From assembly GCF_000970285.1 (NCBI RefSeq), contig NZ_CP009516.1:971036-1035035 (forward strand): a stretch of 64,000 nucleotides of DNA. The letters are read 5' to 3'. The notes under the pieces are model-generated. The model searched no databases and was not told where the DNA came from. It saw only the letters and a program-made list of their open reading frames with translations. This DNA comes from Methanosarcina horonobensis HB-1 = JCM 15518. Its GTDB lineage: Archaea; Halobacteriota; Methanosarcinia; Methanosarcinales; Methanosarcinaceae. Position numbers and translations under genes: made by a program. This document shows, one piece after another, positions 37,819-61,691 of the stretch (position 1 is the stretch's first letter; each line of letters begins with the position of its first letter).

Positions 37819-37819
37819 C

Positions 37820-38479: not shown

Positions 38480-39438
38480 TCAATACTCACGGCTCCTTCC
38501 TTAAAAAACAAAACAACTGTTTTCTTGTAAAAGTTGACGACAAAGTTTTCGAAGTTTCAGAAAAGAAAGTGGACAGTATCCTGATCACGACCTCTGCCAC
38601 CATAACTACCGATGCAATCAAATTTGCGGTAGAAAACAATATCGATATCGTTTTTCTGGACAACTTCGGAGACCCTTATGGCAGAATCTGGCACTCAAAA
38701 CTCGGGAGCACGACATACATCAGGAGAAGGCAGCTTGAGATTTCGGAAGAGCCCGAGGGATTCAGGCTTGCGAAAGGCTGGATAGAACAGAAGATCGACA
38801 GCCAGATACTTTTTTTGAAAGACCTCAAAAAGAACAGGCCTGAACAGAAGGATGAACTTGACGATTATATTTCTGGAATGGAAGATATGAAAGCGCAGCT
38901 TGAAGCCCTTGAGGGGACGCTTGACGAAATGCGAGGGAAGATCATGGGCCTTGAAGGGATGGCTTCTAGGCATTATTTTGAGGCTTTGAGTTATCTTCTG
39001 CCCGATAAATGGAAATTCAATGGCAGAAGCAGAAACCCTGCAAAGGACGAATTTAACTGCCTTTTGAATTATGGATATGGAGTTTTGTATTCAAGGGTTG
39101 AAAAAGCGTGCATTATAGCAGGGCTTGACCCTTATGTCGGTTTTAACCACACAGATGACTATAACAAAAAGTCGTTTGTTTTTGACCTTATTGAGATGTA
39201 CCGCATCCATATTGACAGGACAGTTTTCAATCTTTTTTCGAAAAAACAGGTTTCAGACAGCTTTTTTGATGAGATCCCGAAAGGCATGACTCTTAATAAG
39301 GAGGGTAAAGCCGTCCTTATCCAGGCTGTCAATGAAACTTTTGATAAAGAAATAAGCTATAGGGGCAGGAACATAAAAATTGGGAACACTATCCAGTTCG
39401 ACTGTCACAGGATTGCAAACAGCCTGATCGGGAAATAA
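38467..39438 (+). CDS. cas1: Cas1 integrase
   Basis: A 323-residue subunit of the Cas1-Cas2 spacer integrase. Metal-binding residues are visible: E163 in LEGMASR, H228 in GFNHTDD, and E243 (or D240) in FDLIEMYR. The N-terminal beta domain (QLVINTHGSFLKKQNN) and DNFGDPYGRIW are typical of I-B Cas1. All catalytic positions appear intact, so the adaptation module is probably active. Confidence 0.96.
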   Translation: MQLVINTHGSFLKKQNNCFLVKVDDKVFEVSEKKVDSILITTSATITTDAIKFAVENNIDIVFLDNFGDPYGRIWHSKLGSTTYIRRRQLEISEEPEGFRLAKGWIEQKIDSQILFLKDLKKNRPEQKDELDDYISGMEDMKAQLEALEGTLDEMRGKIMGLEGMASRHYFEALSYLLPDKWKFNGRSRNPAKDEFNCLLNYGYGVLYSRVEKACIIAGLDPYVGFNHTDDYNKKSFVFDLIEMYRIHIDRTVFNLFSKKQVSDSFFDEIPKGMTLNKEGKAVLIQAVNETFDKEISYRGRNIKIGNTIQFDCHRIANSLIGK

Positions 39439-39533
39439 AAGCTTTGACGTGATAAATTCGTGAAGCAGTAACGTAATGATCCAGATAATTAATGATTCAA
39501 TATGATGATTCGATAAAAGTAAGAATGAGGTGA

Positions 39534-39830
<297 letters not shown>

Positions 39831-39846
39831 ATTTTCTGAGGTACGT

Positions 39847-40554
39847 ATGATCAATTATGAGTGTGTGATGAACGAGGGACAAGCTGAAATCTGTATCGAG
39901 AAAGATACAGACCTTGAAAAAAATCCCGAAGACGAAGATAGCACAGCCGTTGAGCCTGATTCTGAAAACGATTCCGGAACAATAATCCGAATTTCAGATG
40001 TTCTTGAATATCTGTTCTGCCCCCGCTTCATTTACTATATGTACTGCCTCGATATCCCCCAGCACGAAGAGAAAAGGTTTAAGGTTATCAAAGGCCGTGA
40101 AGTCCATGAAACAAGAAAACTCACAAATAGGGATTATGTGAGAAAGAAACTGAACTGCATAAGGAAAGAGAGCGACATTTTTATTGCTTCAAAGCAGCAC
40201 CATATAAAAGGAATCGTTGATGAGGTACTATTTCTTGAAGATGGGACTGCTGCTCCTCTTGAGTACAAATTTGCCGAATATAAAGACAAAGTTTTTAAGA
40301 CCTATAAGTTTCAGCTGGTTTTGCAGGCTCTTTTGATCCGGGAAAATTATAATATTGAAGTAAACCGCGCCTACCTCTGTTTTACCCGGAGCAACAGCCT
40401 GGTCAAAGAAATGGAGATTACCCCTTCTGATTTCAAAAAAGCCGAAAAAATAATCGAAGAAATACTCGATATCGTTCAAAAAGGCTTATATCCCAAGACA
40501 TCCAGATCTTCTAGAAAATGCGTAGATTGCTGTTATCGGAATATCTGCGTATGA
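39847..40554 (+). CDS. cas4: Cas4 nuclease with acidic N-terminal extension
   Basis: A 235-residue PD-(D/E)XK nuclease with an iron-sulfur cluster that trims prespacers and helps select PAM-containing spacers. Cluster cysteines: one in YLFCPRF near residue 57 and three in CVDCCYRNIC at the end. GIVDEVL and PLEYKFAE give the catalytic D and E-x-K. The first 45 residues are strongly acidic and not usual for Cas4. TGAGGT precedes the ATG. Last gene before the leader. Confidence 0.93.
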   Translation: MINYECVMNEGQAEICIEKDTDLEKNPEDEDSTAVEPDSENDSGTIIRISDVLEYLFCPRFIYYMYCLDIPQHEEKRFKVIKGREVHETRKLTNRDYVRKKLNCIRKESDIFIASKQHHIKGIVDEVLFLEDGTAAPLEYKFAEYKDKVFKTYKFQLVLQALLIRENYNIEVNRAYLCFTRSNSLVKEMEITPSDFKKAEKIIEEILDIVQKGLYPKTSRSSRKCVDCCYRNICV

Positions 40555-40667: not shown

Positions 40668-43600
40668 ATTCGAGAGCAAGATCCATTAAAACAAGGATTG
40701 AAACTCCGTTCTTATTTCTTTTCCACAATGCCCACAGTATTCGAGAGCAAGATCCATTAAAACAAGGATTGAAACTCTGGTCCTGGTCTGATCTTCCATC
40801 GCATCCAGTAAATTCGAGAGCAAGATCCATTAAAACAAGGATTGAAACAACCTCGTACACTCCCAGGAATTCGACCTCTACCAAAATTCGAGAGCAAGAT
40901 CCATTAAAACAAGGATTGAAACAGATCAAGCCAGAAGCAAGACAGCTTCTAGCCAGATTCGAGAGCAAGATCCATTAAAACAAGGATTGAAACTTTCAAA
41001 AACAAAAAATCTTGGATGTACCATCGATGAATTCGAGAGCAAGATCCATTAAAACAAGGATTGAAACCAGAGTGTCCTGAGAGAAAACGCCCTTCTCATA
41101 TGAAGGATTCGAGAGCAAGATCCATTAAAACAAGGATTGAAACTCATGGATGTTAATATAAGCGCAAGCGTCCGCCATATTCGAGAGCAAGATCCATTAA
41201 AACAAGGATTGAAACTTGAACCATTCTGCCAGAACTCCGATGATTTCAAATTCGAGAGCAAGATCCATTAAAACAAGGATTGAAACACAACTCGATATCT
41301 GTATCCTGATAGCGGGACCAAATTCGAGAGCAAGATCCATTAAAACAAGGATTGAAACGATCATCTTAACGTATTTACGAATGTTTCAAAAAAATTCGAG
41401 AGCAAGATCCATTAAAACAAGGATTGAAACAAACATCATTTAAGTGAAAACCGAAAAGAATGGAGAATTCGAGAGCAAGATCCATTAAAACAAGGATTGA
41501 AACATCCTCCAATGAAATAATTGCACTTGCAAATTCTATTCGAGAGCAAGATCCATTAAAACAAGGATTGAAACTTGCATCGATATCGACGGTAACTGCT
41601 TCTTTTTTTGATTCGAGAGCAAGATCCATTAAAACAAGGATTGAAACTTTTCTTTTTTCACAATAACAGCATGATATATATTATTCGAGAGCAAGATCCA
41701 TTAAAACAAGGATTGAAACTGGATTTACCATAAGATTGCAGAAAAATTGTAGTATTCGAGAGCAAGATCCATTAAAACAAGGATTGAAACGCCAGCTTAT
41801 GCCGAAAATAATAATATGATAGTGTAATTCGAGAGCAAGATCCATTAAAACAAGGATTGAAACGGCTTTTCGTCTGTACTTTACAACGAGTATAAGGTGA
41901 TTCGAGAGCAAGATCCATTAAAACAAGGATTGAAACGTTTATAATGTGCTATCAGCCCGTTTTTTGGAATAATTCGAGAGCAAGATCCATTAAAACAAGG
42001 ATTGAAACGTTCAACCACGCTTGACCACCTTCTTCAGATAGGATTCGAGAGCAAGATCCATTAAAACAAGGATTGAAACCCCAATGAAGGCATGTTTCAT
42101 AAATTTGAAAAGAATTCGAGAGCAAGATCCATTAAAACAAGGATTGAAACTCGTGAAGCCTGGTAAACTGCATCAATACACAAGAATTCGAGAGCAAGAT
42201 CCATTAAAACAAGGATTGAAACCATGTTTTGTAATTACTATCGAAAATGTAGTATCATTCGAGAGCAAGATCCATTAAAACAAGGATTGAAACTTGGAGC
42301 AGTGTAGTCTTTTAGGTCGTCCCTTACGATTCGAGAGCAAGATCCATTAAAACAAGGATTGAAACTGACAAAAACCGAAGACGTAATAAATTTAATAAAA
42401 TTCGAGAGCAAGATCCATTAAAACAAGGATTGAAACCCTTGAGAATCCCTGAAATACTCTTAATCTGTTCGAATTCGAGAGCAAGATCCATTAAAACAAG
42501 GATTGAAACGTCCGATTCTTTTTTCACCTGGCAAATAATCGCTGTATTCGAGAGCAAGATCCATTAAAACAAGGATTGAAACGCCAACTGATGCCTATCG
42601 CTCTGGTAATTGGTGGAATTCGAGAGCAAGATCCATTAAAACAAGGATTGAAACAACTGGAACAGAGATGTAAAAAATGTGCCTAATATCGGATTCGAGA
42701 GCAAGATCCATTAAAACAAGGATTGAAACAATGTTCTGCCGTGAGTATTGCCGAGAAGTCGCCAAAAATTCGAGAGCAAGATCCATTAAAACAAGGATTG
42801 AAACTGTCTCTTCTCATGTCTTCCTCATCTCCTCGTGTTTATTCGAGAGCAAGATCCATTAAAACAAGGATTGAAACCGAAGGAGGAACTTGCTTTTGCG
42901 AAGGAGTATTATGAATTCGAGAGCAAGATCCATTAAAACAAGGATTGAAACTATAAATTGTTCTGGTAAATATCCTCACTCTTTATTCGAGAGCAAGATC
43001 CATTAAAACAAGGATTGAAACCATCTACGAATCTTCTGTGAAAAGTCTTCACCTGGATTCGAGAGCAAGATCCATTAAAACAAGGATTGAAACATCAAAT
43101 CCAAGTCACAAACCTGACCCGCCGCATTATTCGAGAGCAAGATCCATTAAAACAAGGATTGAAACTCTCTTGGAGGTTCTGAGATTGAGACTAGTAAGGG
43201 ATTCGAGAGCAAGATCCATTAAAACAAGGATTGAAACATTGCATTGCTCCATTTGTAGAAGAAGGTTCTTATATATTCGAGAGCAAGATCCATTAAAACA
43301 AGGATTGAAACTTGTGGTACCGTCTAAACCTTTCATTGTTGAATCACAATTCGAGAGCAAGATCCATTAAAACAAGGATTGAAACCTCCCCATTTCTCAG
43401 GAAGTCAGGAAGTCCATAGGATTCGAGAGCAAGATCCATTAAAACAAGGATTGAAACTTTTTCTTTTGTGGCTTGCTGGTGTGCATTTCTATATTCGAGA
43501 GCAAGATCCATTAAAACAAGGATTGAAACGAACAGTATTCAAGATCTCCACCAGGAGGTGAGACAATTCGAGAGCAAGATCCATTAAAACAAGGATTGAA

Positions 43601-44260
43601 ACAAAATCACTTCGTTCTGTTCTGTAAGCTTTTCCTGATTCGAGAGCAAGATCCATTAAAACAAGGATTGAAACAATCATATCTATATCCACAACAACGA
43701 GGTAAATACTATTCGAGAGCAAGATCCATTAAAACAAGGATTGAAACTTCATTTCTGCGTATTTCTTACGACATCTGCATACAAGATTCGAGAGCAAGAT
43801 CCATTAAAACAAGGATTGAAACACATCGTAAAGTTTGCTATGATTCCAACATGTCACGATTCGAGAGCAAGATCCATTAAAACAAGGATTGAAACAAAAA
43901 TAATACGCTAATGCTCCAATTGCGCCGATTCCAATTCGAGAGCAAGATCCATTAAAACAAGGATTGAAACTCCCGCTATCAGTTTCGCCAGATAGTCCGA
44001 AGCCTCATTCGAGAGCAAGATCCATTAAAACAAGGATTGAAACTTTTGTAATGGGCTAACATCGAACCTGGTATATTGTAATTCGAGAGCAAGATCCATT
44101 AAAACAAGGATTGAAACACAGCGAACTTAAAGCTGTAACTGTAATCAAAAAGGATTCGAGAGCAAGATCCATTAAAACAAGGATTGAAACCACCGGCAGC
44201 AAAGAAGTCGGTTGCCCTGAGAAATTCGAGAGCAAGATCCATTAAAACAAGGATTGAAAC
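40668..44260 (+). CRISPR. Main type I-B CRISPR array, 50 repeats and 49 spacers
   Basis: The repeat is 37 bases, starting ATTCGAGAGCAAG and ending GGATTGAAAC, with CCATTAAAAC in the middle. I counted 50 copies from 40668 to 44224 with repeat-to-repeat distances of 70-76 bases, giving spacers of 33-39 bases. All copies look identical, including the last at 44224-44260, so there is no degenerate terminal repeat. I saw no spacer duplicated in the array. Frames read through the array are artefacts. Loss-free repeats together with intact Cas1, Cas2 and Cas4 suggest recent activity. Confidence 0.98.
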
Positions 44261-44335
44261 ATCTAACTCTAAATAGATTTTTGGCAAACTTTAATGTATA
44301 TTTATTTATCATATTATAATATATTATAACAGAAT

Positions 44336-44587
44336 ATGTCTACAATAGCTATAGACCCGGATGTAAAAGAATCGCTTAGAGAGTTAAAGTTAGCTCCAGA
44401 AGAGTCTTATAATTCGGTAGTTAAGAGACTTATTAGCGAAGTTAAAAAGAAAGAAGACTATAAGCCTATGTTTCCAAAAGAAGAAAAACAAGAACATAAG
44501 GAATCTCGTATAAAAGATTTTAATGCTTGGTTAGAAAAGAAGCTGGTAGAAGATAAAAATATTTTAGATGCACTTGGAAGAAAGTGA
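44336..44587 (+). CDS. Antitoxin of a Doc-like pair (copy 1)
   Basis: An 83-residue charged protein. The first 35 residues (STIAIDPDVKESLRELKLAPEESYNSVVKRLI) look like a ribbon-helix-helix DNA-binding domain; the rest is a flexible toxin-binding tail. It overlaps the toxin gene by 20 bases. The upstream ATATTATAATATATTATAA at about 44309-44328 holds repeated halves and is probably both promoter and operator. Identical protein at 47503. Confidence 0.8.
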   Translation: MSTIAIDPDVKESLRELKLAPEESYNSVVKRLISEVKKKEDYKPMFPKEEKQEHKESRIKDFNAWLEKKLVEDKNILDALGRK

Positions 44588-44975
44588 TGCTTTGATCAGT
44601 TTAATTGAAATTTTGAAAATTCATCAAAAGGTTATAGATTACGATAAATTTAAAGATCCAGATGATTATACCCCCGCAATACGTTCTTTAGCTACGTTGG
44701 AATTAATGTTTGAATATTTAATAAAAGAATCTAATACTATTTTCGAAAATGCAGCAATAATAGTCTATACTATTGTTGCAAAACATCCGTTTTTCAACGG
44801 AAACAAAAGAACTGGTTATGAAGCCATGAATTTTGTTATTGAAGATGCAGGATACAAGTTTACATCTACAGATAAAGAGATGATAGAATTCATAATTAGA
44901 GTAGCTACAACAGAAAATGAAATGTCAATTGAAGAAATAAAAGAATGGATAATTCGACATACGGAAAGAACATGA
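44568..44975 (+). CDS. Fic/Doc-family toxin (copy 1)
   Basis: A 135-residue Doc-type protein. HPFFNGNKRT at residues 73-82 is the Fic/Doc active-site motif: the histidine is the base and NKR binds phosphates. Doc phosphorylates elongation factor Tu, while related Fic proteins AMPylate targets. The gene overlaps its antitoxin, the normal layout of such modules. Identical protein at 47735. Confidence 0.88.
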   Translation: MHLEESDALISLIEILKIHQKVIDYDKFKDPDDYTPAIRSLATLELMFEYLIKESNTIFENAAIIVYTIVAKHPFFNGNKRTGYEAMNFVIEDAGYKFTSTDKEMIEFIIRVATTENEMSIEEIKEWIIRHTERT

Positions 44976-45015
44976 TAACATAGAATCAAAGAGATGTACA
45001 GAGCAACAATTAATT

Positions 45016-45051
45016 ATTCAACAGCATAATCCACTAAAACAGGATTGAAAT
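45016..45051 (+). CRISPR. Degenerate CRISPR repeat after TA copy 1
   Basis: 36 bases aligning to the repeat: ATTCAACAGCATAATCCACT then AAAACAGGATTGAAAT. One base is deleted and the last base changed. It lies 38 bases after the toxin stop. Confidence 0.8.
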
Positions 45052-47157: not shown

Positions 47158-47194
47158 GAAAACTCTCAAAATTTACTAAAACAAAGATTGAAAT
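47158..47194 (+). CRISPR. Strongly degenerate CRISPR repeat
   Basis: The right half (TTTACTAAAACAAAGATTGAAAT) clearly matches the repeat; the left half is nearly unrecognisable. Confidence 0.6.
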
Positions 47195-47234
47195 ATTGGT
47201 CTTCCTACACTGCTACATGAGCTCGAATTTTTCT

Positions 47235-47406
47235 ATTCGTGAGCAAGATCCATTAAAACAAGGATTGAAACAATCATTACTTTCATATTGAAAGCTATGC
47301 GTAAGAATTCGCGAGCAAGATCCACTAAAACAAGGATTGAAACATTATTCTGATGTAAATTTTGTAGATAGTTCATCAACATTCGCGAGTAAAATCCTTA
47401 AAACAA
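47235..47406 (+). CRISPR. Relic mini-array, two repeats plus a truncated third
   Basis: Repeats at 47235-47271 (one mismatch, ATTCGTGAGC) and 47307-47343 (ATTCGCGAGC with CCACT), then a truncated third at 47381-47406. Spacers are 35 and 37 bases, in the normal range. It ends about 50 bases before copy 2 of the Doc-like cassette. Confidence 0.92.
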
Positions 47407-47502: not shown

Positions 47503-47754
47503 ATGTCTACAATAGCTATAGACCCGGATGTAAAAGAATCGCTTAGAGAGTTAAAGTTAGCTCCAGAAGAGTCTTATAATTCGGTAGTTAAGAGACTTAT
47601 TAGCGAAGTTAAAAAGAAAGAAGACTATAAGCCTATGTTTCCAAAAGAAGAAAAACAAGAACATAAGGAATCTCGTATAAAAGATTTTAATGCTTGGTTA
47701 GAAAAGAAGCTGGTAGAAGATAAAAATATTTTAGATGCACTTGGAAGAAAGTGA
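47503..47754 (+). CDS. Antitoxin of a Doc-like pair (copy 2)
   Basis: Protein identical to the one at 44336. The promoter here reads CATATTATAACATATTATAAC, a clean direct repeat of ATATTATAAC, slightly different from copy 1; this may mark the operator. Identical coding sequence implies recent duplication or gene conversion. Confidence 0.8.
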   Translation: MSTIAIDPDVKESLRELKLAPEESYNSVVKRLISEVKKKEDYKPMFPKEEKQEHKESRIKDFNAWLEKKLVEDKNILDALGRK

Positions 47755-48142
47755 TGCTTTGATCAGTTTAATTGAAATTTTGAAAATTCATCAAAAGGTT
47801 ATAGATTACGATAAATTTAAAGATCCAGATGATTATACCCCCGCAATACGTTCTTTAGCTACGTTGGAATTAATGTTTGAATATTTAATAAAAGAATCTA
47901 ATACTATTTTCGAAAATGCAGCAATAATAGTCTATACTATTGTTGCAAAACATCCGTTTTTCAACGGAAACAAAAGAACTGGTTATGAAGCCATGAATTT
48001 TGTTATTGAAGATGCAGGATACAAGTTTACATCTACAGATAAAGAGATGATAGAATTCATAATTAGAGTAGCTACAACAGAAAATGAAATGTCAATTGAA
48101 GAAATAAAAGAATGGATAATTCGACATACGGAAAGAACATGA
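47735..48142 (+). CDS. Fic/Doc-family toxin (copy 2)
   Basis: Identical to the toxin at 44568, with the same HPFFNGNKRT motif (residues 73-82) and the same 20-base overlap with its antitoxin. Each antitoxin copy should neutralise both toxins, so loss of one cassette is tolerated. Confidence 0.88.
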   Translation: MHLEESDALISLIEILKIHQKVIDYDKFKDPDDYTPAIRSLATLELMFEYLIKESNTIFENAAIIVYTIVAKHPFFNGNKRTGYEAMNFVIEDAGYKFTSTDKEMIEFIIRVATTENEMSIEEIKEWIIRHTERT

Positions 48143-48182: not shown

Positions 48183-48219
48183 ATTCAACATCATAATCCA
48201 CTAAAACAAGGATTGAAAC
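48183..48219 (+). CRISPR. Degenerate CRISPR repeat after TA copy 2
   Basis: 37 bases starting ATTCAACATCATAATCCACT and ending AACAAGGATTGAAAC. Followed by a spacer-length 36 bases and the next relic at 48256. Confidence 0.88.
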
Positions 48220-48255
48220 CTATATTATATTTTTTGTCTGCAACGTTTTCTATAT

Positions 48256-48291
48256 ATTCTAGAGCTAGATCTATAAAACAAGAGCTGAAAC
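48256..48291 (+). CRISPR. Degenerate CRISPR repeat before the chitosanase gene
   Basis: 36 bases starting ATTCTAGAGCTAGATCTATA and ending AAGAGCTGAAAC. It lies 45 bases upstream of the chitosanase start. Confidence 0.8.
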
Positions 48292-48336
48292 CAAAAATTG
48301 TACAGTTGGATCAAAATACAGGAAAGGAGAATCTAC

Positions 48337-49089
48337 TTGAAAATATGGATGGTTTTGATATTCCTCCTTCTGATGGCAGTACCTTGTGCCGCCTCAGACA
48401 AGGAAGCAGCCTTGCAGATGACAACCGCACTTGAGAACAGTGTTATTGAAATGCAGTTCAATTATGCGGAAAACCTGGGAGATGGTCGTGGAATTACGTT
48501 CGGCTGCGTTGGGTTTTGTACAGGGACATATGATGGGAACATTCTGATTAAGCACTATACAGAACTGAATCCGAACAATGACCTGGCAAGGTTCATTCCT
48601 GCCTTAGATGCTATTGATAGTAGTTCTCATACTGCTACTGCTGCTGATAGAGATGGCAATCCAAGTGTGGAAGGACTGGATGGTTTCATTGAGGCTGTGA
48701 AAGGATGTGACGACCCGCTGTTCGAGCAGGCTCAGCTGGACATGCTGGACAAATTGTATTGGGATCCAGCAATGAAACTGGCTGAGGGAGCAGGTTGTAA
48801 GAATGCTTTGACGAAGGCATTCATCTATGATATGTATGTGAGGCATGGTCCTAATGGTGCCCAGAGCATCATGAAGGAAGCCGGTTCTGTTGGGGACGAT
48901 GAAAACGCCTACTTGGAAAGGCTGTTCCAGTACAGGGATTCTGCACTCAAGAATGAAGGCCTGGGTGATGTGGACAGGGATAATGGATACAAACAGGTAT
49001 TAGAAGCGGGCAATATCGACCTGGCCACACCATTCACGTTTGAAGCACATGGAGACATGTTCAACATTTCTGGTGATCTTGGGATTTGA
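48337..49089 (+). CDS. Secreted GH46 chitosanase
   Basis: About 250 residues from TTG 48337, chosen because GGAAAGGAGAA lies 6 bases upstream and it gives a clean signal peptide (MKIWMVLIFLLLMAVPCAAS). The mature part is GH46: E33 in TALENS and D49 in LGDGRG are the likely catalytic pair, followed by GFCTGTYDGN and the family end AGNIDLATPF. GH46 enzymes hydrolyse chitosan with inversion. Such an enzyme is unexpected in a methanogen and more common in bacteria, so transfer is likely. Relic CRISPR repeats bound it on both sides. Confidence 0.9.
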   Translation: MKIWMVLIFLLLMAVPCAASDKEAALQMTTALENSVIEMQFNYAENLGDGRGITFGCVGFCTGTYDGNILIKHYTELNPNNDLARFIPALDAIDSSSHTATAADRDGNPSVEGLDGFIEAVKGCDDPLFEQAQLDMLDKLYWDPAMKLAEGAGCKNALTKAFIYDMYVRHGPNGAQSIMKEAGSVGDDENAYLERLFQYRDSALKNEGLGDVDRDNGYKQVLEAGNIDLATPFTFEAHGDMFNISGDLGI

Positions 49090-49190
49090 TTCGAGAGCAA
49101 GATCCACTAAAACAAGGATTGAAACCATAAGTATTAAGACTGTGCATTATCCTGAGTTATTCGAGAGCAAGGTCCACTAAAGCAAGGATT
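49089..49190 (+). CRISPR. Relic repeat-spacer-repeat after the chitosanase gene
   Basis: First repeat 49089-49125 differs from the main repeat only at CCACT; its first base is the last base of the chitosanase stop codon. A 33-base spacer follows, then a second repeat from 49159 truncated near 49190 and carrying GGTCC and AGCAAGG changes. Confidence 0.93.
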
Positions 49191-49341
49191 ATACTCGGAT
49201 CATACCTGCTCCTGGCATACAAACATATCAACACCAATAAACACTGCAAGCAATATTACTAACGAGTTGCTGCTATACCCCAGATGCTGTAAAAGAAAAT
49301 TAAGCAAAATCTCATTAATCATATCTGTAATAAGAGATAAT

Positions 49342-49842
49342 ATGGACAGTCTGAAGAGTGGAGATATTACTGTACGCACGCAAAAGTCTGGTGATGCCGC
49401 ATATATAGCTTATAGACATTGCGTTCTTTACGAAAAAGAATACGGACTTTGCGGAACTTTTGAGCAGTACGTGCTGGACAGCCTGGTTAAATATATTGAG
49501 CACAGGTCCGAAGGGGAAATCTGGGTAGCAGAGTATAATGGTCAGATTGTTGGCTTTATAGGAGTTGTCAGTACAGACAAAAATACAGCGCAGCTCAGAT
49601 GGTTTTTAATAGAGCCAGAATTTCGCGGAACAGGCTTGGGCAGACAGTTGATGACCATAGCAGTCGACTACTGCAAACAAAAAAAGTTCAGTCGAGTATT
49701 TTTGTGGACAATGCAGGGTTTGGAGGTTGCATACCATTTGTATAGTAGTTTTGGATTTATTCCTGTAGAACAGGTCGAAAATAATACATGGAAAAGAGGT
49801 GTGGTAGAAGAGCGCTGGGAACTTTTATTGGAATCTGTGTAA
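49342..49842 (+). CDS. GNAT-family N-acetyltransferase
   Basis: 166 residues from ATG 49342. RWFLIEPEFRGTGLGRQLM at about residues 92-110 carries the acetyl-CoA binding R-x-x-G-x-G/A loop, and the helix after it plus VAYHLYSSFGFIPVEQ complete the fold. Substrate unknown. The frame extends upstream to 49267 but that part is poor. It lies between two relic CRISPR clusters, so it is another cargo gene. Confidence 0.87.
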   Translation: MDSLKSGDITVRTQKSGDAAYIAYRHCVLYEKEYGLCGTFEQYVLDSLVKYIEHRSEGEIWVAEYNGQIVGFIGVVSTDKNTAQLRWFLIEPEFRGTGLGRQLMTIAVDYCKQKKFSRVFLWTMQGLEVAYHLYSSFGFIPVEQVENNTWKRGVVEERWELLLESV

Positions 49843-50001: not shown

Positions 50002-50181
50002 CATCGTGAGCAAGATCTATTAATACAAGGATTGAAACTGCTTGTGCATCCAGCCGGCTATCAAGCAGCTGGCTTATTCGAGAGCAAAATCCACTAAAAC
50101 AAGGATTGAAACCACAATTGGACTCGACTATGAACTTATTGAGGTAAAATTCGAGAGCAAGATCCACTAAAACAAAGATTA
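50002..50181 (+). CRISPR. Relic mini-array of three degenerate repeats
   Basis: Repeats at 50002-50038 (starts CATCGTGAGC), 50076-50112 (near perfect, CAAAATCCACT) and 50149-50181 (truncated at AAAGATTA). The spacers are 37 and 36 bases. It closes the cargo block carrying the GNAT gene. Confidence 0.92.
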
Positions 50182-50564
50182 AGGCCTTTTCGATTTTTGC
50201 CAGCATTCATACTGTTTGCTTCTTTTCATATTGACGTTTCAGGCTCTCAAGTGCATATCTTCAGCATACACCGAAGCCAGGAGTTAAAGCCAAAAATATG
50301 ATAGTGGGGTCAATCTTGCGTTCGCATTTTATAATATCAGTCCTCCTAGCAGTTTCCCTTGAACATTCTTTGGGAAATATTTTTGAAGAGGATTTTAGAG
50401 AGTAATTTTAGAGTAGAGGTTTTTCAGAGCAGATTAGAATGAGCATATATGATTACATATAGTTTTATGGAATGATTATTATAAAACTATATGTAAAAAA
50501 CTGAATTATCCCTTAACCGATGACCAATGAATGAGGTCTTGGTTAAAGAAAGGACTGATTTGCC
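50182..50564. promoter_or_regulatory. Region upstream of the ZIP gene with a 16-bp inverted repeat
   Basis: 383 bases without a gene. A perfect inverted repeat of 16-base arms, TTACATATAGTTTTAT at 50453-50468 and its complement at 50481-50496, has a 12-base centre. It ends about 68 bases before the ZIP transporter start and is a candidate operator or transposon end. Confidence 0.7.
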
Positions 50565-51329
50565 TTGCTGGATGTATTGGAGGCAGGATTCTGGGGCCTC
50601 ATTGCGGGTCTGGGTTTGTTTTTGGGTGCTCTGGTCGGCTATTTTGTGGAACTTCGCCACCACGTGATTGCCACGATCATGGGGTTTGGTGGAGGCGTTC
50701 TGATTTCGATTTTGTCTTTCGATCTCATGGAAGAAGCGTATGAGCTGACAGGATTTGAAATGACCGCCGCTGGGTTTTTAGCAGGCGGCTTAGTTTTTAG
50801 CACAGCGAACTGGCTGCTTGCAAGGCATGGGGCACAAAACCGCAAGCGCTGTGGACAATGTGTGCAGCAGCCGAGTGAGGAACAACATCCGGGAAGTGGG
50901 ATATCGCTGTTTTTAGGCGCTCTGGTGGATGGTATTCCAGAGTCGCTGGTAATTGGATTAAGCTTGATTGGAGGCGGTATGATCCCATCCGCTACGCTGG
51001 CAGGTTTTTTCCTGGCAAACGTTCCCCAGGGGCTTTCCAGCGCTTCGGGCATGAAAGATGCTAGGCGATCCGCTCGCTACGTGCTCGGCGCGTGGGGAGG
51101 ATTGACACTCGCCTCTGGCGTTGCAGCACTTTTAGGATACAGCATCTTCGGAGGACTTTCGACAAGCATGATCGCGTTGATGTCTGCATTTGCTGCCGGA
51201 GGGCTGTTAGCGATGCTGACGGAGACGATGATCCCCGAGGCATTCGACCAGGCGTCCGCCTTCATCGGGCTAATTACTGTAACGGGTTTTCTGGCAGCGT
51301 TTGTCATATTGAAGATAAGTCTTCACTAA
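50565..51329 (+). CDS. ZIP-family metal ion transporter
   Basis: A 254-residue membrane protein with about eight helices. GALVDGIPESLVIGLSLI near residue 138 is the ZIP helix IV motif, where D, E and nearby residues line the metal path (zinc, iron or manganese). The charged His/Cys-containing loop at residues 85-110 (HGAQNRKRCGQCVQQ) may sense or store metal. TTG start with AAAGGA upstream. Composition and neighbours look bacterial (Firmicutes-like). Confidence 0.85.
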   Translation: MLDVLEAGFWGLIAGLGLFLGALVGYFVELRHHVIATIMGFGGGVLISILSFDLMEEAYELTGFEMTAAGFLAGGLVFSTANWLLARHGAQNRKRCGQCVQQPSEEQHPGSGISLFLGALVDGIPESLVIGLSLIGGGMIPSATLAGFFLANVPQGLSSASGMKDARRSARYVLGAWGGLTLASGVAALLGYSIFGGLSTSMIALMSAFAAGGLLAMLTETMIPEAFDQASAFIGLITVTGFLAAFVILKISLH

Positions 51330-51378
51330 ACTTGCAGCTCTTCAGCAGCGGTGCCCGGCCTGATAATTCGGCCTGATA

Positions 51379-51466
51379 ATTGACAGGGATGTCAATATAT
51401 GCCACATTTATATATGTTGACAGGAGTGTCAGTATACGCTATATTTATACTGACAGGACGGTCAGT
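51379..51466. promoter_or_regulatory. Three tandem palindromic operators for the TetR regulator
   Basis: ATTGACAGGGATGTCAAT at 51379-51396, TTGACAGGAGTGTCAG at 51417-51432 and ACTGACAGGACGGTCAGT at 51449-51466 share the core TGACAGG-x-TGTCA. Archaeal TATA-like boxes (TTTATATAT near 51408 and TATATTTATA near 51440) lie between them. Binding of the adjacent TetR protein would block its own promoter. Confidence 0.75.
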
Positions 51467-51475
51467 AAAACGGAG

Positions 51476-52096
51476 ATGATGCAGTTGCCTTTACAGCTTT
51501 ACGATAAAGAGCAAATTTTGGATTCCTGTTTGGCAGTGTTTGCCCGGTATGGGTATGAAAAGACATCAACAGCGATGCTGGCTGAGGCAGCTGGTATTTC
51601 CAGAGCACTGATCTTTCACCATTTCAAGAGCAAAAAAGAGCTTTATCTAAGTTTACTGGACCGATGCTTTGCCAGAGGAAGGATTGAAATGGGCTTTGAC
51701 AACCTGTTGGAATATAAGGACTTTTTTGCGGCTAAAAAAGAGTTCAGTATAATTAAATTCAATTATTATAAAAAAAATCCTGATTTGTACAAATTTGTGC
51801 GAGAAGCCTTTTTTGCAACACCGTATGAATTGAAGATGGAGATTGAAGAAAAGTACGGAGAGTTGATCACCAACAGGGACAAAGAGTGGGAGCTGCTGTT
51901 TGCCAAAGTTCCCCTCCGGGAAGGCGTGGATCGCGGGCAGTCATTCAAGCTGGTCATGCTCGTACTGGATTATTTCGACAACAAATATATATCGGAATTA
52001 GCGGACGATAGCGATTTGGATGAGACGTATCTCCAAAGCTTTCTGGCTGAGAGAGACAGTTTTCTGGCTCTGGTTCGGCATGGAATCGAAAGGTAA
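51476..52096 (+). CDS. TetR/AcrR-family transcriptional regulator
   Basis: 206 residues from ATG 51476. The N-terminal helix-turn-helix ILDSCLAVFARYGYEKTSTAMLAEAAGISRALIFHHF is typical TetR; the C-terminal domain (residues 60-206) should bind an inducer. An upstream extension to 51380 would run through the three palindromes and is unlikely. It precedes the rifampicin-phosphotransferase-like gene by 18 bases, so they are probably one operon. Confidence 0.9.
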   Translation: MMQLPLQLYDKEQILDSCLAVFARYGYEKTSTAMLAEAAGISRALIFHHFKSKKELYLSLLDRCFARGRIEMGFDNLLEYKDFFAAKKEFSIIKFNYYKKNPDLYKFVREAFFATPYELKMEIEEKYGELITNRDKEWELLFAKVPLREGVDRGQSFKLVMLVLDYFDNKYISELADDSDLDETYLQSFLAERDSFLALVRHGIER

Positions 52097-52114
52097 AGGA
52101 GAGGGGTTGTAAGA

Positions 52115-54469
52115 ATGGCTGACATGGTAAAAAGCTTCCGTGAGCTAACACCTGAACTGCAGGCCACAGCCGGCGGCAAAGGCGGCACACTGGCAAGGCT
52201 GTTCCAGGCCGGATATCCCGTGCCGGCAGGCTTCGTCGTTTTACCAACTGCTTTTCTGGATGAAAAGCTGACTGACGAAGCCTGGGATGAAGTGCGAGTT
52301 CATCTACATGCCATCACGAAGGACAATGTCAGAGCACAGTTTGCCGTAAGGTCGTCAGCTTTGAGTGAAGATTCGGCTCGGACTTCCTTTGCCGGGGAAT
52401 TTGAAACAGTACTTAACGTAGAATCGGATAAAGAGATACAGGAAGCGATCTATACAGTTTTCAGATCAAGAGAAGCTGAACGAGTGAAAGCCTACAGTGC
52501 TATTCAGGGTATGGATCAGTTACACCAGATTGCGGTAGTGGTTCAGCTGATGGTGCCGTCGGAGATTTCCGGCGTATTATTTACTGCCGATCCGTTTACC
52601 GGCAGTTTTGCCAGCATGATAGGTAATTATGTCCATGGTTTGGGTGAGCGGCTGGTATCCGGTGAGGTAGATGCACATACTTTCAAATTGATGCGGCCAA
52701 AAGGGAAATATGACGGCCCGGAAGAATTTAAGAAACACGCCCCGGTGCTGTAGCAATATGCTGCAAGGCTCGAGAGAGAACTGGGTGCCCCACAGGATAT
52801 CGAATGGGCGGTTGCGAAAGGAAAACTGTACCTGCTGCAGGCAAGGCCGATAACCACACTGACAGAGGGCAATCTGGACACCTATGAAATAAACGAAAGC
52901 CTGGCCGGTGATGCCCTTTGGGTAAATACCAATGTGGGGGAGGCAATCCCTGATGTTATTACACCGTTTACCTGGAGTCTGGTAAGGGGCCTGGACAATG
53001 AGTCCGGTTTCATTCCTGGATACTATCTATGGTCCGGCAATATCTGCGGCAGAATATACTCAAATATCAGCCAGAGATTATCCGCAATTACGGCACTATA
53101 CGGTTGGGATGCCAAACGGGCCATGACGCTAATCGGTGAAATTTTTGGTCATATTCCTGAAGATTTAAGCGTACCCGTATATCCATTTTCACGGTTTCAT
53201 TTGATTAAGGAGATGCTGCCAGGGATAAAGCGTCTAATCTGGAATACTTTAAAAGCCTCTAAAAATATGCCGTCGTTTCTCAATGACACACCTGTCTGGT
53301 GCGGAAAGATGACAGAACGGATCGGAAAAATAAAGACAGAGGCAGAGCTGCTGTCGTTGTGGAAAGATGAGCTCCAGCCTTATAGCTTCAAGGCCTGGTG
53401 GATGCATATCACAGCAGGCAGCAAAGCAGTGCTTGCTTTGAGATTAAATAAGAAGCTTGCAAAGTTGGTAGGAACGGAAGATGCGAATGCGCTTCTGTCC
53501 AACTTAAGAGGAAGCTCCGAACTGGCAAGTCTTGGGCCGATCACAGGCATTTCCAGGGTTATCAAGGGAGAAATGAGCCGGGAAGAATATTTGCTGCAGT
53601 ACGGCCACCGGGGACCCCATGAGTTTGAGCTGTCCATACCTGGTCCTGCTGAGGATAATACCTGGCTGGAGAGGCAGGTAGAGGAATTTGGAAAGATGGA
53701 TGTGGATGGGCTTTTAGAGAGACAGCATACTCAATTCGAAGCAGCCAGGAAGAGATTTCAGGAGCGTTTTCCCAATAAAGTAAAATGGCTTGATAAGCAG
53801 CTGGCGAAAGCATCGGAAGGCACTCGCCTCAGGGAAGCAGCCCGTTCGGAGTTGGTAAGGGTATTAAGAGTTGTTCGGGCCTTTGCGCTTAAAACAGGAG
53901 AGCTTACGGGAATAGGGGACAGTGTATTTTTCCTCTATGTTAATGAAGTTGAAAACTTGCTTGCAGGAGACAATTCAGCACTGAAGTATGTTCCCGCAAG
54001 AAAAGAGAACTATGAGAAATATAAAGCTCTGCCGCCGTTCCCGTCAATTATCCGGGGAAGATTCGATCCCTTCGAATGGGCAAAGGACCCCGATAGAAGA
54101 CTTGATTACTACGATGCTACTATGCCGGTTGCTACTGCGCCTTATTCGGAAATGCTCAGAGGATTTGCCGGAGCAGCCGGCAAGGTAGAAGGGAGGGTGC
54201 GCGTTCTGGCAAATCCCGAAGAAGGCGAAATGCTGCAGCCAGGTGAAATTCTGGTCGCCACAACCACCAATGTTGGATGGACACCTCTATTCCCTCGAGC
54301 CGCAGCAATAGTCACCGATATAGGAGCTCCGCTGTCCCACGCTGCCATAGTAGCCAGAGAACTTGGTATTCCTGCTGTTGTGGGATGTGGCAACGCCACT
54401 CTAAGGCTAAAAACAGGAGACAGGGTTATAGTTGACGGTGGACAGGGAACTGTACATATATTGAAGTGA
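52115..54469 (+). CDS. Rifampicin phosphotransferase-like PEP-utilising enzyme with in-frame UAG
   Basis: One frame of 785 codons interrupted at codon 213 (TAG, 52751-52753). N-terminal ATP-grasp domain with GGKGGTLARLF and QLMVPSEISGVLFTADPFTG; a middle helical region; and a C-terminal phosphohistidine domain with GAPLSHAAIVAREL (H742). It ends after the His domain and lacks the pyruvate/PEP barrel of PEP synthase, which is the order found in rifampicin phosphotransferases (ATP, rifampicin, His domains). Coding quality does not drop after the TAG. Either a nonsense mutation (CAG to TAG is one change) or pyrrolysine decoding. Ribosome binding site GGAGAGGGG before the ATG. Confidence 0.8.
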
Positions 54470-54545
54470 AAAGTCAATTTTTACATTTTAAAATGAGTCG
54501 GTACGTCAAATTTTTTGGATATTTTCGGGCATATTCGAAAGCGTT

Positions 54546-54812
54546 GTGACCAACTGTACTTTTAGGGGTAATACTAGCCTATCTAAGTCTTATCTTTACG
54601 CCAACCAGGAGATTCGTAATCGGATTGAGGCCTTGCGCAAGCAGCAGGAAGGTGTTTCCTCTAAGCTGGTGAAGCAAGAGATGACCGATAGCAGCAAAGA
54701 TGTTTTTTTGGCCGCGAAGAACAAAAGGATTCATGAGTTGGAGGAAGAGGTCAAACATCTCAAAGGTGAGCTTCAGCGCCTAAGAGGGCAATTGTATGAG
54801 AAGGGGCTTTAA
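54546..54812 (+). CDS. DUF6262/TnpC-like protein fragment (Tn554-type element)
   Basis: An 88-residue frame with GTG start. SKSYLYANQEIRNRIEALRKQ and the coiled-coil KNKRIHELEEEVKHLKGELQRLRGQLYE match the small third protein of Tn554-like transposons. The usual N-terminus is missing; the first residues are non-homologous, so it is truncated. No TnpA/TnpB recombinase gene is present. It is a trace of how the bacterial-type genes to its left may have arrived. Confidence 0.7.
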   Translation: MTNCTFRGNTSLSKSYLYANQEIRNRIEALRKQQEGVSSKLVKQEMTDSSKDVFLAAKNKRIHELEEEVKHLKGELQRLRGQLYEKGL

Positions 54813-55005
54813 GCTACGTTGAGGACATATCCACAACGCGAACGAAAGAAATGGCTGAGTTTTTGGGTCGGGAGTTAAGATAACTTGAAGAAAAGGTAAA
54901 GATACATAAGCGGCAGCTGGCTCTACTGGAAAAAAACAATCAGCAATGCATAAAAAAGTTATACAGTTTATGCGGTTTTGACAAAAAATAAAGAGGAGGA
55001 TTACT

Positions 55006-55524
55006 ATGAATGAGAAAGTAGTAGAACAACAGGAGAGAAACATAATTATAGAAGCAGCAAAGCTTGCCGATCGTGCACAGATCAGCGAATTGCTGAGCCG
55101 CTTCTGCAGCGTTGTAGACGATAAATGCATCAGCGTTGCGACGGTGGCGGCTGTTTTCACACCGGATGGCCGCTTCGTGTCTCCCAATGGCGCGGCAGCT
55201 GTCGGTCCTGAGGTTATTGCCGAAGAAAAAAGCAAGAGCTTCAGCCGGTTCCGCGCAACGCACCACGTCACTAGCGACCATATCATCGACCTCGACGGGG
55301 ACACCGCTCACCTACGAGCTAATATGACAGCGATGCACCTGTGGGCTGAAGAGGAGAGTGATCCGAGGTCGCTGCAATCGCATTTTGTTGCCGGAGGTGT
55401 TTTTGAAGCGGTCGCGGTACGTACCAGCGACGGGTGGCGGTTCAGCGAACTGAAGTCGCGTATTACGTGGCGAACGGGTGCAAGTCTGCCTGTAATGGCG
55501 AAGATGGGTAAACCAAGGGACTGA
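55006..55524 (+). CDS. SnoaL-like (NTF2-fold) protein
   Basis: A 172-residue protein with excellent ribosome binding site AGAGGAGGATTACT before the ATG. LADRAQISELLSRFCSVVDD near residue 20, VFTPDGRFVSP and THHVTSDHIIDLDGDTAHLR fit the SnoaL-like domain used by small-molecule dehydratases, cyclases and isomerases. Substrate unknown. Higher GC than flanks, so it appears foreign. Confidence 0.82.
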   Translation: MNEKVVEQQERNIIIEAAKLADRAQISELLSRFCSVVDDKCISVATVAAVFTPDGRFVSPNGAAAVGPEVIAEEKSKSFSRFRATHHVTSDHIIDLDGDTAHLRANMTAMHLWAEEESDPRSLQSHFVAGGVFEAVAVRTSDGWRFSELKSRITWRTGASLPVMAKMGKPRD

Positions 55525-56177: not shown

Positions 56178-56213
56178 ATTCGAGAGCAAAATCACTAAAA
56201 CAGGGATTGAAAC
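56178..56213 (+). CRISPR. Single degenerate CRISPR repeat
   Basis: 36 bases starting ATTCGAGAGCAAAATCACTA and ending CAGGGATTGAAAC, with one deletion and three substitutions. Confidence 0.9.
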
Positions 56214-56274
56214 CAGGTAGTATTAACATCCGAAATTATCTCATGATCAAACTTTCTTGTTCTGATTAACTTCT

Positions 56275-56484
56275 TTAGTTTTCTGTTAATGATTTTTTTA
56301 CATATTCTACAGCATCAGCTATTACAGACACGCCAAAGTCGTTTCCATACTCTTTAAACCTTAAACAAAATGCTTGAGCTATAATTAAAGAATGTGGCAA
56401 AGAAATATGAAAATTTATATAATTCATACGCATAAAATCTTTAATGTCATCCAAAACATATTTGGGAACTATTGAATGCGACAC
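56275..56484 (-). CDS. Small protein of unknown function (possibly a fragment)
   Basis: A 69-residue frame with GTG start. It looks like natural protein (helical, with ISLPHSLIIAQAFCLRFKEYG) but I recognise no family. It lies between two relic CRISPR repeats, and could be a remnant or a TA component. Confidence 0.35.
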   Translation of the reverse strand: MSHSIVPKYVLDDIKDFMRMNYINFHISLPHSLIIAQAFCLRFKEYGNDFGVSVIADAVEYVKKSLTEN

Positions 56485-56768
56485 GTTGGATGATCTCCCA
56501 ATGAAGTTATTTTTTTACTGAATATATTTTCTTTTTATCATATAACAACGTTTCATTTTTACTTGTTTTATTATTTTTATTTTTTAGTAATACGTTCTCT
56601 AACATGGGAAATCTTTATGTATCTGAACGCATTTTTATTGATGTGTAACTCAAATTTACTTGATTTGCTTGAAAAACGGCATTTTCCTCCCTAAATCTGC
56701 ACTGTAGTTTTTCAGGAGTGGTTTGCCATTTACCTCTCCTGAAATCTGCTGTCTTCCTGCACTAATTC

Positions 56769-56805
56769 ATTTACGAGTAAGGTCCACTAAAACAAGGATT
56801 GAAAC
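56769..56805 (+). CRISPR. Single degenerate CRISPR repeat
   Basis: Starts ATTTACGAGTAAGGTCCACT and ends AAGGATTGAAAC. The right 20 bases match the main repeat well. Confidence 0.85.
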
Positions 56806-56941
56806 ACTGTAACATAAAGTTGTTAAAGCGCCAAAAATGAAAACTCTTTACAAAATCGGAATTGGTCTTATGTGGTTTTCTACATCAAAAATTGTTGGTA
56901 CTACACTTAGTGTGTAGTATCCGGAAATTCTTAAAAGGCAG

Positions 56942-57898
56942 TTACATCGAAGTAGCTGGCACATAAGCGGTGAAAGGAACTGCTTGAGACTCAGAATTTA
57001 CGGCTTCTCCTTCAAAGACATATACTGGTAAAGCGGAATCCTGTTCTTCGCCTGCAGGCTCCATCCAATAGGCAAGATAAATATTCTTGATGCTTACCTT
57101 ATCGATTGTATCCAGGTTTGCCGTTAAGAACATGGCTTTGCCATTTTGCAGTTCAGTATAGGCAGTCTCAGCTGTTTTAATATTCGCTTTTTCCTTAGAT
57201 ATCTCTACATCTTTCCACGCCTTGAACAAACCAACGACTTCACCCTTCTCTCCGATATATACCTTTATTTTGTTACCAGGACCAACAATGGGTATGCCAT
57301 TAATCTCTCTTGCAGATGCAACTACCTGAAGCACCACATCGTACTCTTCCAGGACTTTTCCTGTACTTTTCTCAGACTCTAACTGCTTATCAGCAACAAC
57401 TTTATCCAGTTTAGCATCAGACGGAAGAAGATTCATTTTTGCAAGGAAGCTCTCTGCAATTTTTATTGCCTCTGCATCCGATGGTAAATCCGGCTGTGAT
57501 GAAACTACGGGGCTCATTTTTTCAGGTACGGAATAAAATATTGCTCCTGATTTCTCATAGACCATCAAATGTTCAGTTCCATCTTCACTCAGCATACCTA
57601 TTTTCCCGGTCCCGGCAGGACCGGCTTCTCCGGTAAAACCAAAACGTTGTCCTATTTCTTCGACATATTCAGATGATACCGTGGGTGCTTTCGTCTCTAA
57701 AATAGGAAATGTACTTTCTAACTCTGGAAAAGAAGTTTCCAGCGTAAATCCCACTGATGAATCAATGCCTGCCTCGTTTGTCGGGAGAACGGTGCCTGCC
57801 TGAGTATGTAACGCCATGCTAATTCCGAATATTGTAAGTATGGATACTATCCCCGCCAAAACCAATATTTTATTTTTCAATTTGCTCCCTCCTTTCAA
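56942..57898 (-). CDS. Secreted partner protein of the DUF6345 protein
   Basis: A 318-residue protein with signal peptide (ILVLAGIVSILTIFGISMA) and a large extracytoplasmic part. Several segments (AEAIKIAESFLAKMNLLP, KIKVYIGEKGEVVGLFKAWKDVE) resemble PepSY/propeptide-like repeats that chaperone or inhibit proteases. It overlaps the DUF6345 gene by 4 bases (ATGA), so the two are translated together. A role as inhibitor or folding partner is inference. Confidence 0.65.
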   Translation of the reverse strand: MKGGSKLKNKILVLAGIVSILTIFGISMALHTQAGTVLPTNEAGIDSSVGFTLETSFPELESTFPILETKAPTVSSEYVEEIGQRFGFTGEAGPAGTGKIGMLSEDGTEHLMVYEKSGAIFYSVPEKMSPVVSSQPDLPSDAEAIKIAESFLAKMNLLPSDAKLDKVVADKQLESEKSTGKVLEEYDVVLQVVASAREINGIPIVGPGNKIKVYIGEKGEVVGLFKAWKDVEISKEKANIKTAETAYTELQNGKAMFLTANLDTIDKVSIKNIYLAYWMEPAGEEQDSALPVYVFEGEAVNSESQAVPFTAYVPATSM

Positions 57899-58653
57899 CA
57901 GTTATAAGTCCATGTAGTGAATTGATCATCCACAGCAGGATCGGAAATTACCGTACCCTGGCCCCATATTTTGTCATTGCCACAAGTTGATGTTTCACCA
58001 AATACTTTTAGAGTAACGCCTGCAGGCTGATTGATATCTATCCCATAGAACCAGGCATTCTTTACCGTATATGCATCATCGTTTGCACCATCATCAATTA
58101 GATAACCAGCCCAGTTCTCTCCGTCACCAGCATAATTATATGCCGTGGTGGAAAAACCACATATCAAATGAGCACCTTGTAAGGACTCTGAAAAATCGTT
58201 GTTGCTTAGAGTATTACATGCATGTAGACCGATCCATTCTAAATCGTAGTCTCCCCATTCAGCTTCATTAGCATAAACTTTCTCTGTGTATGCAGATACA
58301 TCAAGTTTTCCAGCAGAACCATGTCCCTGGTAGAACGCAATGTCTACACCATCAATATAAGTAGTATCCGAACCACTCTGTTCGAAATGAGCAGCTTTTG
58401 CGTTGCTATCTCCTTTGTTGAACTTCTTTGTCCACCCAGCGTTCCCGATACGATTATAAAAACCCACAGCAGAATCATCACTATTAGGTAAGTCCGCATA
58501 CGGGTAGGTATAATCGCATACCCATTCAATCCCAACTTCCGGACTTGATGAATCGCTATCATCGCCCGTACCAGCGCTTGCTGGCAATGTTAGTGCTGCA
58601 AGGATACATAAGACCAACATGGTTGTTCTAATTCCATATCTACTTCCGTTCAT
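57895..58653 (-). CDS. Secreted DUF6345 protein with caspase-like His/Cys pair
   Basis: A 252-residue exported protein (signal peptide through residue 27). The DUF6345-like body has GNAGWTKKFNKGDSNAKA, then DIAFYQGHGSAG (H111) and EWIGLHACNTLS (C146). A hydrophobic strand followed by H-G and another followed by A-C is the clan CD cysteine peptidase pattern (caspases, gingipains). Whether it cleaves protein is unproven. Coupled to the downstream partner gene; the membrane-anchored regulator 138 bases upstream may control both. Confidence 0.75.
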   Translation of the reverse strand: MNGSRYGIRTTMLVLCILAALTLPASAGTGDDSDSSSPEVGIEWVCDYTYPYADLPNSDDSAVGFYNRIGNAGWTKKFNKGDSNAKAAHFEQSGSDTTYIDGVDIAFYQGHGSAGKLDVSAYTEKVYANEAEWGDYDLEWIGLHACNTLSNNDFSESLQGAHLICGFSTTAYNYAGDGENWAGYLIDDGANDDAYTVKNAWFYGIDINQPAGVTLKVFGETSTCGNDKIWGQGTVISDPAVDDQFTTWTYNC

Positions 58654-58790
58654 GCACTATCTCCATTATTTTTTTCACAAAACAATTAATTTGTATTGTA
58701 TTATGGAGTAGATATGAAAAATTAATAAAAGGTCGTAATATGTTCGGAAAAAACCGAATTTCAGAAACTGCCTGCTGCCTTCTCACATTA

Positions 58791-59708: not shown

Positions 59709-59745
59709 ATTCGAGAGCAAGCTCCATTAAAATAAGAGTTAAAAC
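59709..59745 (+). CRISPR. Single degenerate CRISPR repeat
   Basis: Starts ATTCGAGAGCAAGCTCCATT and ends AAGAGTTAAAAC. It lies 62 bases from the end of the CapA-like gene. Confidence 0.88.
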
Positions 59746-61580: not shown

Positions 61581-61691
61581 TTAATTCCACTTTAACAAAA
61601 AACAATAATAGTTCTTTTTTCATCTTTGTAATATCGGCTTGCCTTCCTGCCACAGCAGACAATGTACCAACAAGCTGTCATCGCAGGAAAT

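Follow-up and report, generated by a model that had tools for sequence, protein, structure and literature searches.

CRISPR arrays are usually seen as stores of spacers of about 36 nt whose old end simply erodes. At one locus of Methanosarcina horonobensis HB-1, a gene for a chitosanase-family enzyme lies between worn CRISPR repeats, which raises the question of how gene-sized DNA comes to sit in an array. We analysed the window, a stretch of 64,000 nt from the 5.02-Mb single contig of the host genome (G000), and compared it with the same locus in 13 congeners. We favour, with moderate confidence, the reading that the chitosanase is one cassette of a CRISPR fossil zone, in which homologous recombination between repeats adds, swaps and removes segments.

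The chitosanase gene and its junctions

The features at the junction, in window coordinates, are as follows.

48183-48219, + strand: relic repeat, first of the upstream pair, 5 mismatches to the consensus
48220-48255, + strand: fossil spacer of 36 nt between the upstream pair
48256-48292, + strand: relic repeat adjoining the chitosanase, strongly decayed (12 mismatches ungapped), with TATA-like CTATAAAA inside
48337-49089, + strand: GH46 chitosanase-family gene, most likely with a TTG start, 250 aa, signal-peptide-like N-terminus
49089-49125, + strand: perfect C-type repeat abutting the gene, 0 mismatches
49126-49158, + strand: fossil spacer of 33 nt between the downstream pair
49159-49195, + strand: relic repeat with its 3' end lost, 6 mismatches

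This map confirms two claims of an earlier note on this DNA: that a repeat-spacer-repeat unit lies on each side of the gene, with spacers of 36 and 33 nt, and that the downstream repeat begins on the last base of the stop codon. The stop TGA occupies 49087-49089 and the repeat (ATTCGAG..) begins at 49089, on its A, so the repeat completes the stop codon TG|A. At the other end, TTG at 48337 is most likely the start, with GGAG upstream and AAGGAGAATC before it, as in one viral relative. Homology to other GH46 genes extends from 23-30 nt past the left repeat up to the right repeat, where the reading frame ends. Viral relatives run on (..NLGISQVV, ..LDLGEYQEE), and two paralogues from a GH46 cluster terminate at nearly the same residue as the CRISPR copy. 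In the decayed repeat at 48256-48292 the letters CTATAAAAC form a TATA-like box, plausibly spaced from the start, and judged by its letters this relic may act as the promoter of the chitosanase.

The relics belong to one repeat family, lie on the same strand and are in part spaced by spacer-sized intervals. Between the array and 63.8 kb they score 38-72, and a shuffle of 104 kb gave three matches with a score of 28. No terminal inverted repeats or target-site duplications were seen by eye at the gene, where the flanking 37-nt repeats could mask short duplications.

The two repeats that flank the chitosanase differ sharply in decay, with 12 mismatches on the left and 0 on the right, and they were therefore probably not neighbours in one old array. 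The claim that the gene occupies the place of a spacer holds as a description of its position and not as one of its origin; comparable events elsewhere in the zone also break at repeats and not inside spacers. The same numbers bear on the idea that Cas1-Cas2, or a casposase, integrated a viral fragment of ~796 bp as an oversized spacer. The exact right junction at a repeat boundary, the viral-type gene and the one-gene insert are as this idea predicts, and a genuine spacer in the second array of the genome does match GH46 genes. One integration would nevertheless leave two equal repeat copies, the chitosanase site is distal and not at the leader, and the other cassettes measure 0.4 to over 3 kb and are not viral. 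We consider integration as a spacer very unlikely.

The array and its fossil zone in the window

The chitosanase is one of many intervals in a long zone, whose features are listed with those of the array.

31859-40554, + strand: type I cas operon (Cas_TM1802, Cas7, ... Cas4), upstream of the array, from Pfam and open reading frames
40668-44260, + strand: intact CRISPR array, whose 50 repeats of 37 nt are identical and have T at position 19
44336-44975, + strand: toxin-antitoxin (TA) pair copy 1 (DUF7557/VapB-like plus Fic/Doc), first cassette past the live array
45016-45050, + strand: relic repeat after TA copy 1, matching the single repeat (18421) of genome G020; left edge of the 16.7 kb extra segment
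45692-45728, + strand: relic repeat
47167-47406, + strand: relic cluster of four repeats (47167, 47235, 47307 and 47381, the last with its 3' end lost) separated by spacers
47503-48142, + strand: second copy of the TA pair, matching copy 1 at 100% over the stretch between ATG and stop
49327-49842, + strand: GNAT acetyltransferase, next cassette after the chitosanase
50002-50185, + strand: relic cluster of three repeats (50002, 50076 and 50149, the last with its 3' end lost) separated by spacers
50565-55524, + strand: cargo of a putative ZIP-like transporter (no Pfam match), TetR, PPDK_N / PEP-utilizer proteins and a SnoaL-like protein
56178-59745, + strand: relic repeats 56178, 56769 and 59709, with DUF6345 and HTH genes on the - strand between them
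59807-60931, - strand: PGA_cap gene, 89% DNA identity with the M. acetivorans zone
61124-61797, + strand: relic repeats 61124, 61698 and 61762, the last being the right edge of the 16.7 kb extra segment
61268-61690: transposase remnant inside the zone, from Pfam
61866-63686, - strand: RNB-domain/dsrm gene (RNB exonuclease), an old cassette, from Pfam
63799-63835, + strand: relic repeat after the RNB gene

The Cas8b-like protein Cas_TM1802 assigns the operon to subtype I-B. Relics in this genome occur only on the distal side of the array, with the cas genes on the other side, and span 45016 to ~73098; they are weaker past 63835, and the last ones lie in the 20 kb that follow the window. Most of them carry C at repeat position 19, as does a second array at 2400559-2403809, and the live array carries T, which suggests that the relics predate the repeat that the live array now has. 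The last repeat of several relic clusters is 3'-degenerate, like an array end. Modules of a gene plus a repeat-spacer-repeat unit recur inside the extra segment (TA copy 2, the chitosanase, GNAT), and no cargo other than GH46 is obviously viral. The junction to which the earlier note drew attention as a single exact case is thus real, but it is one of many in an architecture that proves to be genus-wide.

The two TA copies are 100% identical from the ATG through most of the following repeat and only ~75% alike upstream; they may reflect recent conversion or duplication. Elsewhere in the genome, a third array with a different repeat (TCGAGAAGTAGCTTCCACTAAAATAAGGATTGAAAC) lies at 2392665-2394111, and old relics beyond it (2377752-2377859) give the second CRISPR locus a relic tail as well.

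Degenerate repeat pairs beside genes, one of them a TA pair, resemble creA genes (PMC9458426, PMC8501985), and a degenerate repeat-spacer-repeat unit could in principle yield a guide RNA with which Cascade represses the neighbouring gene. Seed matches of the fossil spacers within 1 kb show no excess against this expectation (mean 7.2, and 7.0 for shuffled spacers), and regulation of this kind is hardly credible as the reason for the arrangement.

The fossil zone across Methanosarcina

The comparison set comprised, besides G000, 42-60 kb from each of the 13 congeners, anchored on an upstream neighbour gene; one of these, G001, we take to be M. acetivorans C2A. An array or its remnants, followed by relics, lies ~14 kb past the anchor in 10 of the 14 genomes, at the same chromosomal site and with a different gene content in each. 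The zone is 6-29 kb long, and worn repeats alternate in it with whole genes. Within the first 20 kb after the arrays (ten species), all 99 relics share the strand of the array, with 0 on the opposite one; elsewhere in the compared loci there is 1 relic far downstream, and 2 lie upstream of arrays. Relic quality drops with distance from the array (pooled Spearman -0.51, p=9e-9, n=110). The gaps between relics are bimodal, with 35 of 32-61 nt, 63 of at least 371 nt and two in between.

A distal relic is orthologous in G000, G010, G020 and G023 and has the derived sequence TTAAGCAGG in common, so parts of the zone are older than these species. The TA pair directly behind the array is found there also in G020, G004 and G030, and within the zone of G005. 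The RNB cassette is kept in G020, G010, G003 and G004, in every case with a repeat on its left border. We conclude that the zone is what a type I-B array has become at its leader-distal, unmaintained end, at one fixed chromosomal site in Methanosarcina. In the open-access literature, the scope of a search with subscription papers and most preprints outside it, we found no account of such gene-bearing zones.

A candidate orthology of the fossil spacer at 48220-48255 with M. acetivorans (80% over 61 nt) failed once the repeats were excluded. In M. acetivorans, one array repeat (G001:C1:2379122-2379291) is split by an insertion of ~125 bp with CACTAA on both sides, which resembles a small transposon with a target duplication.

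A 16.7 kb segment between two repeats

The closest view of how the chitosanase arrived comes from G020. Its order is array, TA pair, one repeat (18421) and RNB gene, and that of the window is array, TA pair, repeat 45016, 16.7 kb including the chitosanase, repeat 61762 and RNB gene. The left block (44289-45050) aligns to G020 17672-18456, through repeat 45016 onto the single repeat, and the right block (61761-63835) aligns to G020 18420-20474, starting on that same repeat. For the whole segment, G020 accordingly supplies the empty site that the earlier note proposed to look for. No genome compared has the two relics that flank the chitosanase without the gene between them, and the comparison covers the entire 16.7 kb.

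None of the other congeners compared at this locus encodes any GH46 protein, here or elsewhere. The locus, its relics and the neighbouring RNB and TA genes are present in species without GH46, so the chitosanase is younger than the repeats; this goes against an ancestral locus in which the gene came first and was inherited vertically. The segment would have entered after this lineage split from its sequenced relatives.

Breakpoints and cassettes at repeats

Breakpoints at repeats recur across the genus. At the left end of the RNB gene, homology starts from the base after the repeat in G000, G010 and G003, and the sequence left of the repeat differs; the left end of a second gene, X, shows the same repeat-bounded pattern in G003, G005 and G030. 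In G003, gene X is preceded by repeat, spacer S* and repeat. In G005 a TA pair, a repeat, a spacer S' and a further repeat stand between that unit and X, with S* 28/32 identical in the two genomes. The pair reads as an empty and a filled site, that is, as repeat-bounded gain or loss. G001 and G030 share a methyltransferase cassette whose alignment, at 88.4% identity, opens with the first base of the left repeat and closes with the last base of the right one. The outer flanks of the cassette are unrelated in the two genomes, and the nearby anchor region is mostly 73-78% identical.

Of the 232 alignment block ends over all pairs of genomes, 28 lie no more than 10 nt from relics in both members of the pair, and 500 trials with shifted relics gave a mean of 0.6 and a maximum of 5. 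Because shared repeats help alignments to extend to repeat ends, not too much weight should be put on how large this excess is. The G003/G005 pair and the methyltransferase cassette are independent of this statistic. Some left-side breakpoints reflect only ordinary turnover of the live array beside a fixed last repeat.

The main rival to recombination between repeats is random insertion plus spacer deletion: genes would occasionally be inserted illegitimately into the old end, spacers between them would be deleted by repeat-repeat recombination, useful genes would stay, and the repeat borders would be what is left over. Repeat-repeat deletion is an accepted property of CRISPR arrays, a transposase remnant does lie within the zone, and the 3'-degenerate repeats that end several clusters would suit such decay. 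It accounts poorly for one cassette with both of its border repeats in two species, at above-background identity and in different neighbourhoods, for the opposite order of the TA and Y cassettes in G030 and G005, and for a chitosanase cut short exactly at a repeat. Passive decay is on these grounds possible but doubtful.

The repeat-bounded blocks, the methyltransferase cassette and the single repeat of G020 point instead to entry and exit by repeat-repeat recombination as the most likely course. Short runs of old repeats, as repeat-spacer-repeat units, would separate the genes at the retired array end; a presumed host recombinase would act on the CRISPR repeats, and gene-sized segments would enter, swap and leave. 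Recombination between repeats would make cassettes begin and end at repeats. We infer this mechanism from sequence comparison, and it calls for putative recombination over 37 bp, often imperfect, in these archaea.

Origin of the GH46 gene

The window protein matches Pfam PF01374 (Glyco_hydro_46) over profile positions 2-210 of 210 (E=3.2e-43) and PDB 1chk by phmmer (E=1.8e-33). Its E33 and D49 are invariant in 8 relatives and align with Glu22 and Asp40 of 1chk, which we take to be the GH46 catalytic pair. The family as a whole is mainly bacterial. It was found in 3 of 31 Methanosarcina genomes and in 2 of 393 genomes sampled from the phylum. The earlier note was right to call GH46 unusual in methanogens, given those two phylum genomes and one more congener. 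G000 has six copies.

One of the six belongs to a provirus at 1751 kb that also encodes a Mu-like major capsid protein, a tail tube protein and neck proteins, and on viral contig L069 a relative (62%) is flanked by portal-like and MuF-like genes. In the GH46 tree the actinobacterial enzymes are far off, and the CRISPR copy forms a long separate branch in a Methanosarcina/viral group, with no firm position inside it. The phylogeny that the earlier note proposed as a check thus sets the actinobacterial enzymes apart and names no donor. The suggested direct import from bacteria is unsupported; the nearest relatives of the gene lie in the G000 provirus and on viral contigs. Judged by these relatives, the chitosanase belongs to a GH46 lineage circulating in Methanosarcina viruses, and we infer a virus as donor of the gene.

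A spacer of the second array (G000:C1:2401702-2401738) matches the GH46 copy at 4426k in 30/37 positions and the provirus copy in 29/37; shuffled spacers match at most 23 positions. The matched segment is in frame with the protein NAYLQK.I.LRD. A search of contigs with a single GH46 protein gave no matches, and a search with a GH46 alignment returned Clostridium, a Paceibacterota MAG and two Methanosarcina MAGs. In the Paceibacterota MAG (contig JAQVBZ010000010.1) the GH46 domain is part of a large protein and 62% identical to the Methanosarcina copies; it could be the enzyme of a partner cell or a binning error.

Four GH46 genes stand in tandem in G000 (L012:5299-13749), and the last of them has three disaggregatase-related repeats (PF06848) as its fusion partner. 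Methanosarcina aggregates are held together by methanochondroitin, a polymer that disaggregatase breaks down (PMC12369344). The fusion, taken with this activity, points to an envelope polysaccharide as substrate. The substrate of the Methanosarcina/viral clade is probably not chitosan, and that of the GH46 product may be methanochondroitin. Cutting of the envelope would serve virus entry, virus exit or host disaggregation.

A possible viral vehicle

Two features place repeats of this kind on viral DNA.

L077:2055-2164, same in L093: viral mini-CRISPR array of two full Methanosarcina-type repeats, between terminase-like and portal genes
L011:3130-3151 = G000:C1:1750129-1750150: solitary 22-nt exact repeat piece in the provirus, just before an ATG (AAGGATTGAAAATG)

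They suggest a special case of repeat recombination, compatible with it, in which a GH46 virus with its own repeat-spacer-repeat unit recombined with the host array and left the gene and that unit behind. Recombination of leader-less phage mini-arrays with host arrays has been proposed (PMC6858448). The Methanosarcina-type virus L077, identical over this stretch to L093, bears a full mini-array with a 36-nt spacer, and its portal shares 51% identity with the portal of L069, the contig with GH46, and 49% with an M. acetivorans locus. In the GH46 provirus, the 22-nt piece follows GH46 at a distance of ~0.84 kb, on the same strand, and is a candidate for a solitary repeat unit (RNA anti-CRISPR) or for a ribosome-binding site of repeat origin. 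Against carry-over, no contig found has both GH46 and a full mini-array, so the viral vehicle stays hypothetical, and no fossil-zone genes were found near viral repeats save one weak (26-28%) protein match. Carry-over in this form is, in our judgement, unlikely.

Exact repeat 22-mers were found on ~24 IMG/VR contigs. These were rejected as Methanosarcina viruses in general, as many may have other hosts with similar repeats, and the viral repeats used are those of L077/L093, by portal homology, and of the provirus in the genome itself.

Significance

In Methanosarcina the old array end persists genus-wide as a dated record in which repeats decay with distance, and it is a site where whole genes are gained or swapped with breakpoints at repeats. 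Whether CRISPR repeats can mediate horizontal gene exchange thereby becomes testable in closed genomes and in culturable archaea, and a gene called a chitosanase is tied to Methanosarcina viruses and, putatively, to a polymer of the host envelope. We hold only tentatively, and as rather improbable, the wider idea that the repeats are the exchange joints of a gene-cassette platform, through which the retired end collects, trades and sheds genes by recombination between repeats, mini-array viruses being among the vehicles. If it is true, an immune-memory locus would also be a doorway for viral genes.

Comparison with known systems

The Methanosarcina zone resembles the trailer end of CRISPR arrays in that repeats decay away from the leader and the last ones often lose their 3' end. 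Unlike known trailer ends, it extends over 6-29 kb, holds many genes between repeats, occurs genus-wide and has cargo that is exchanged. Integron cassette arrays likewise consist of genes bounded by short direct repeats, with strain-variable order and content and with units that move. The borders of the zone are CRISPR repeats, by contrast, with no attC sites; no integron integrase was among the window proteins scanned, and movement is probably by general homologous recombination.

As in CreTA modules (PMC9458426), degenerate repeat pairs stand beside genes, in one cassette beside a TA pair. The TA pair of the zone is a protein toxin-antitoxin (Doc type), unlike CreTA, and no guide-target match was found. 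The window protein matches the GH46 chitosanase 1chk over the whole domain and keeps the residues aligned with Glu22 and Asp40, whereas members of the Methanosarcina/viral clade are extended at the C-terminus or fused to disaggregatase repeats. Host-array repeats on viral DNA are likewise a feature of virus-borne mini-CRISPR arrays (PMC6858448) and of solitary repeat units, or Racrs (PMC10651486). The outcome proposed here differs from theirs in that genes would be deposited in the host array, rather than spacers gained by the virus.
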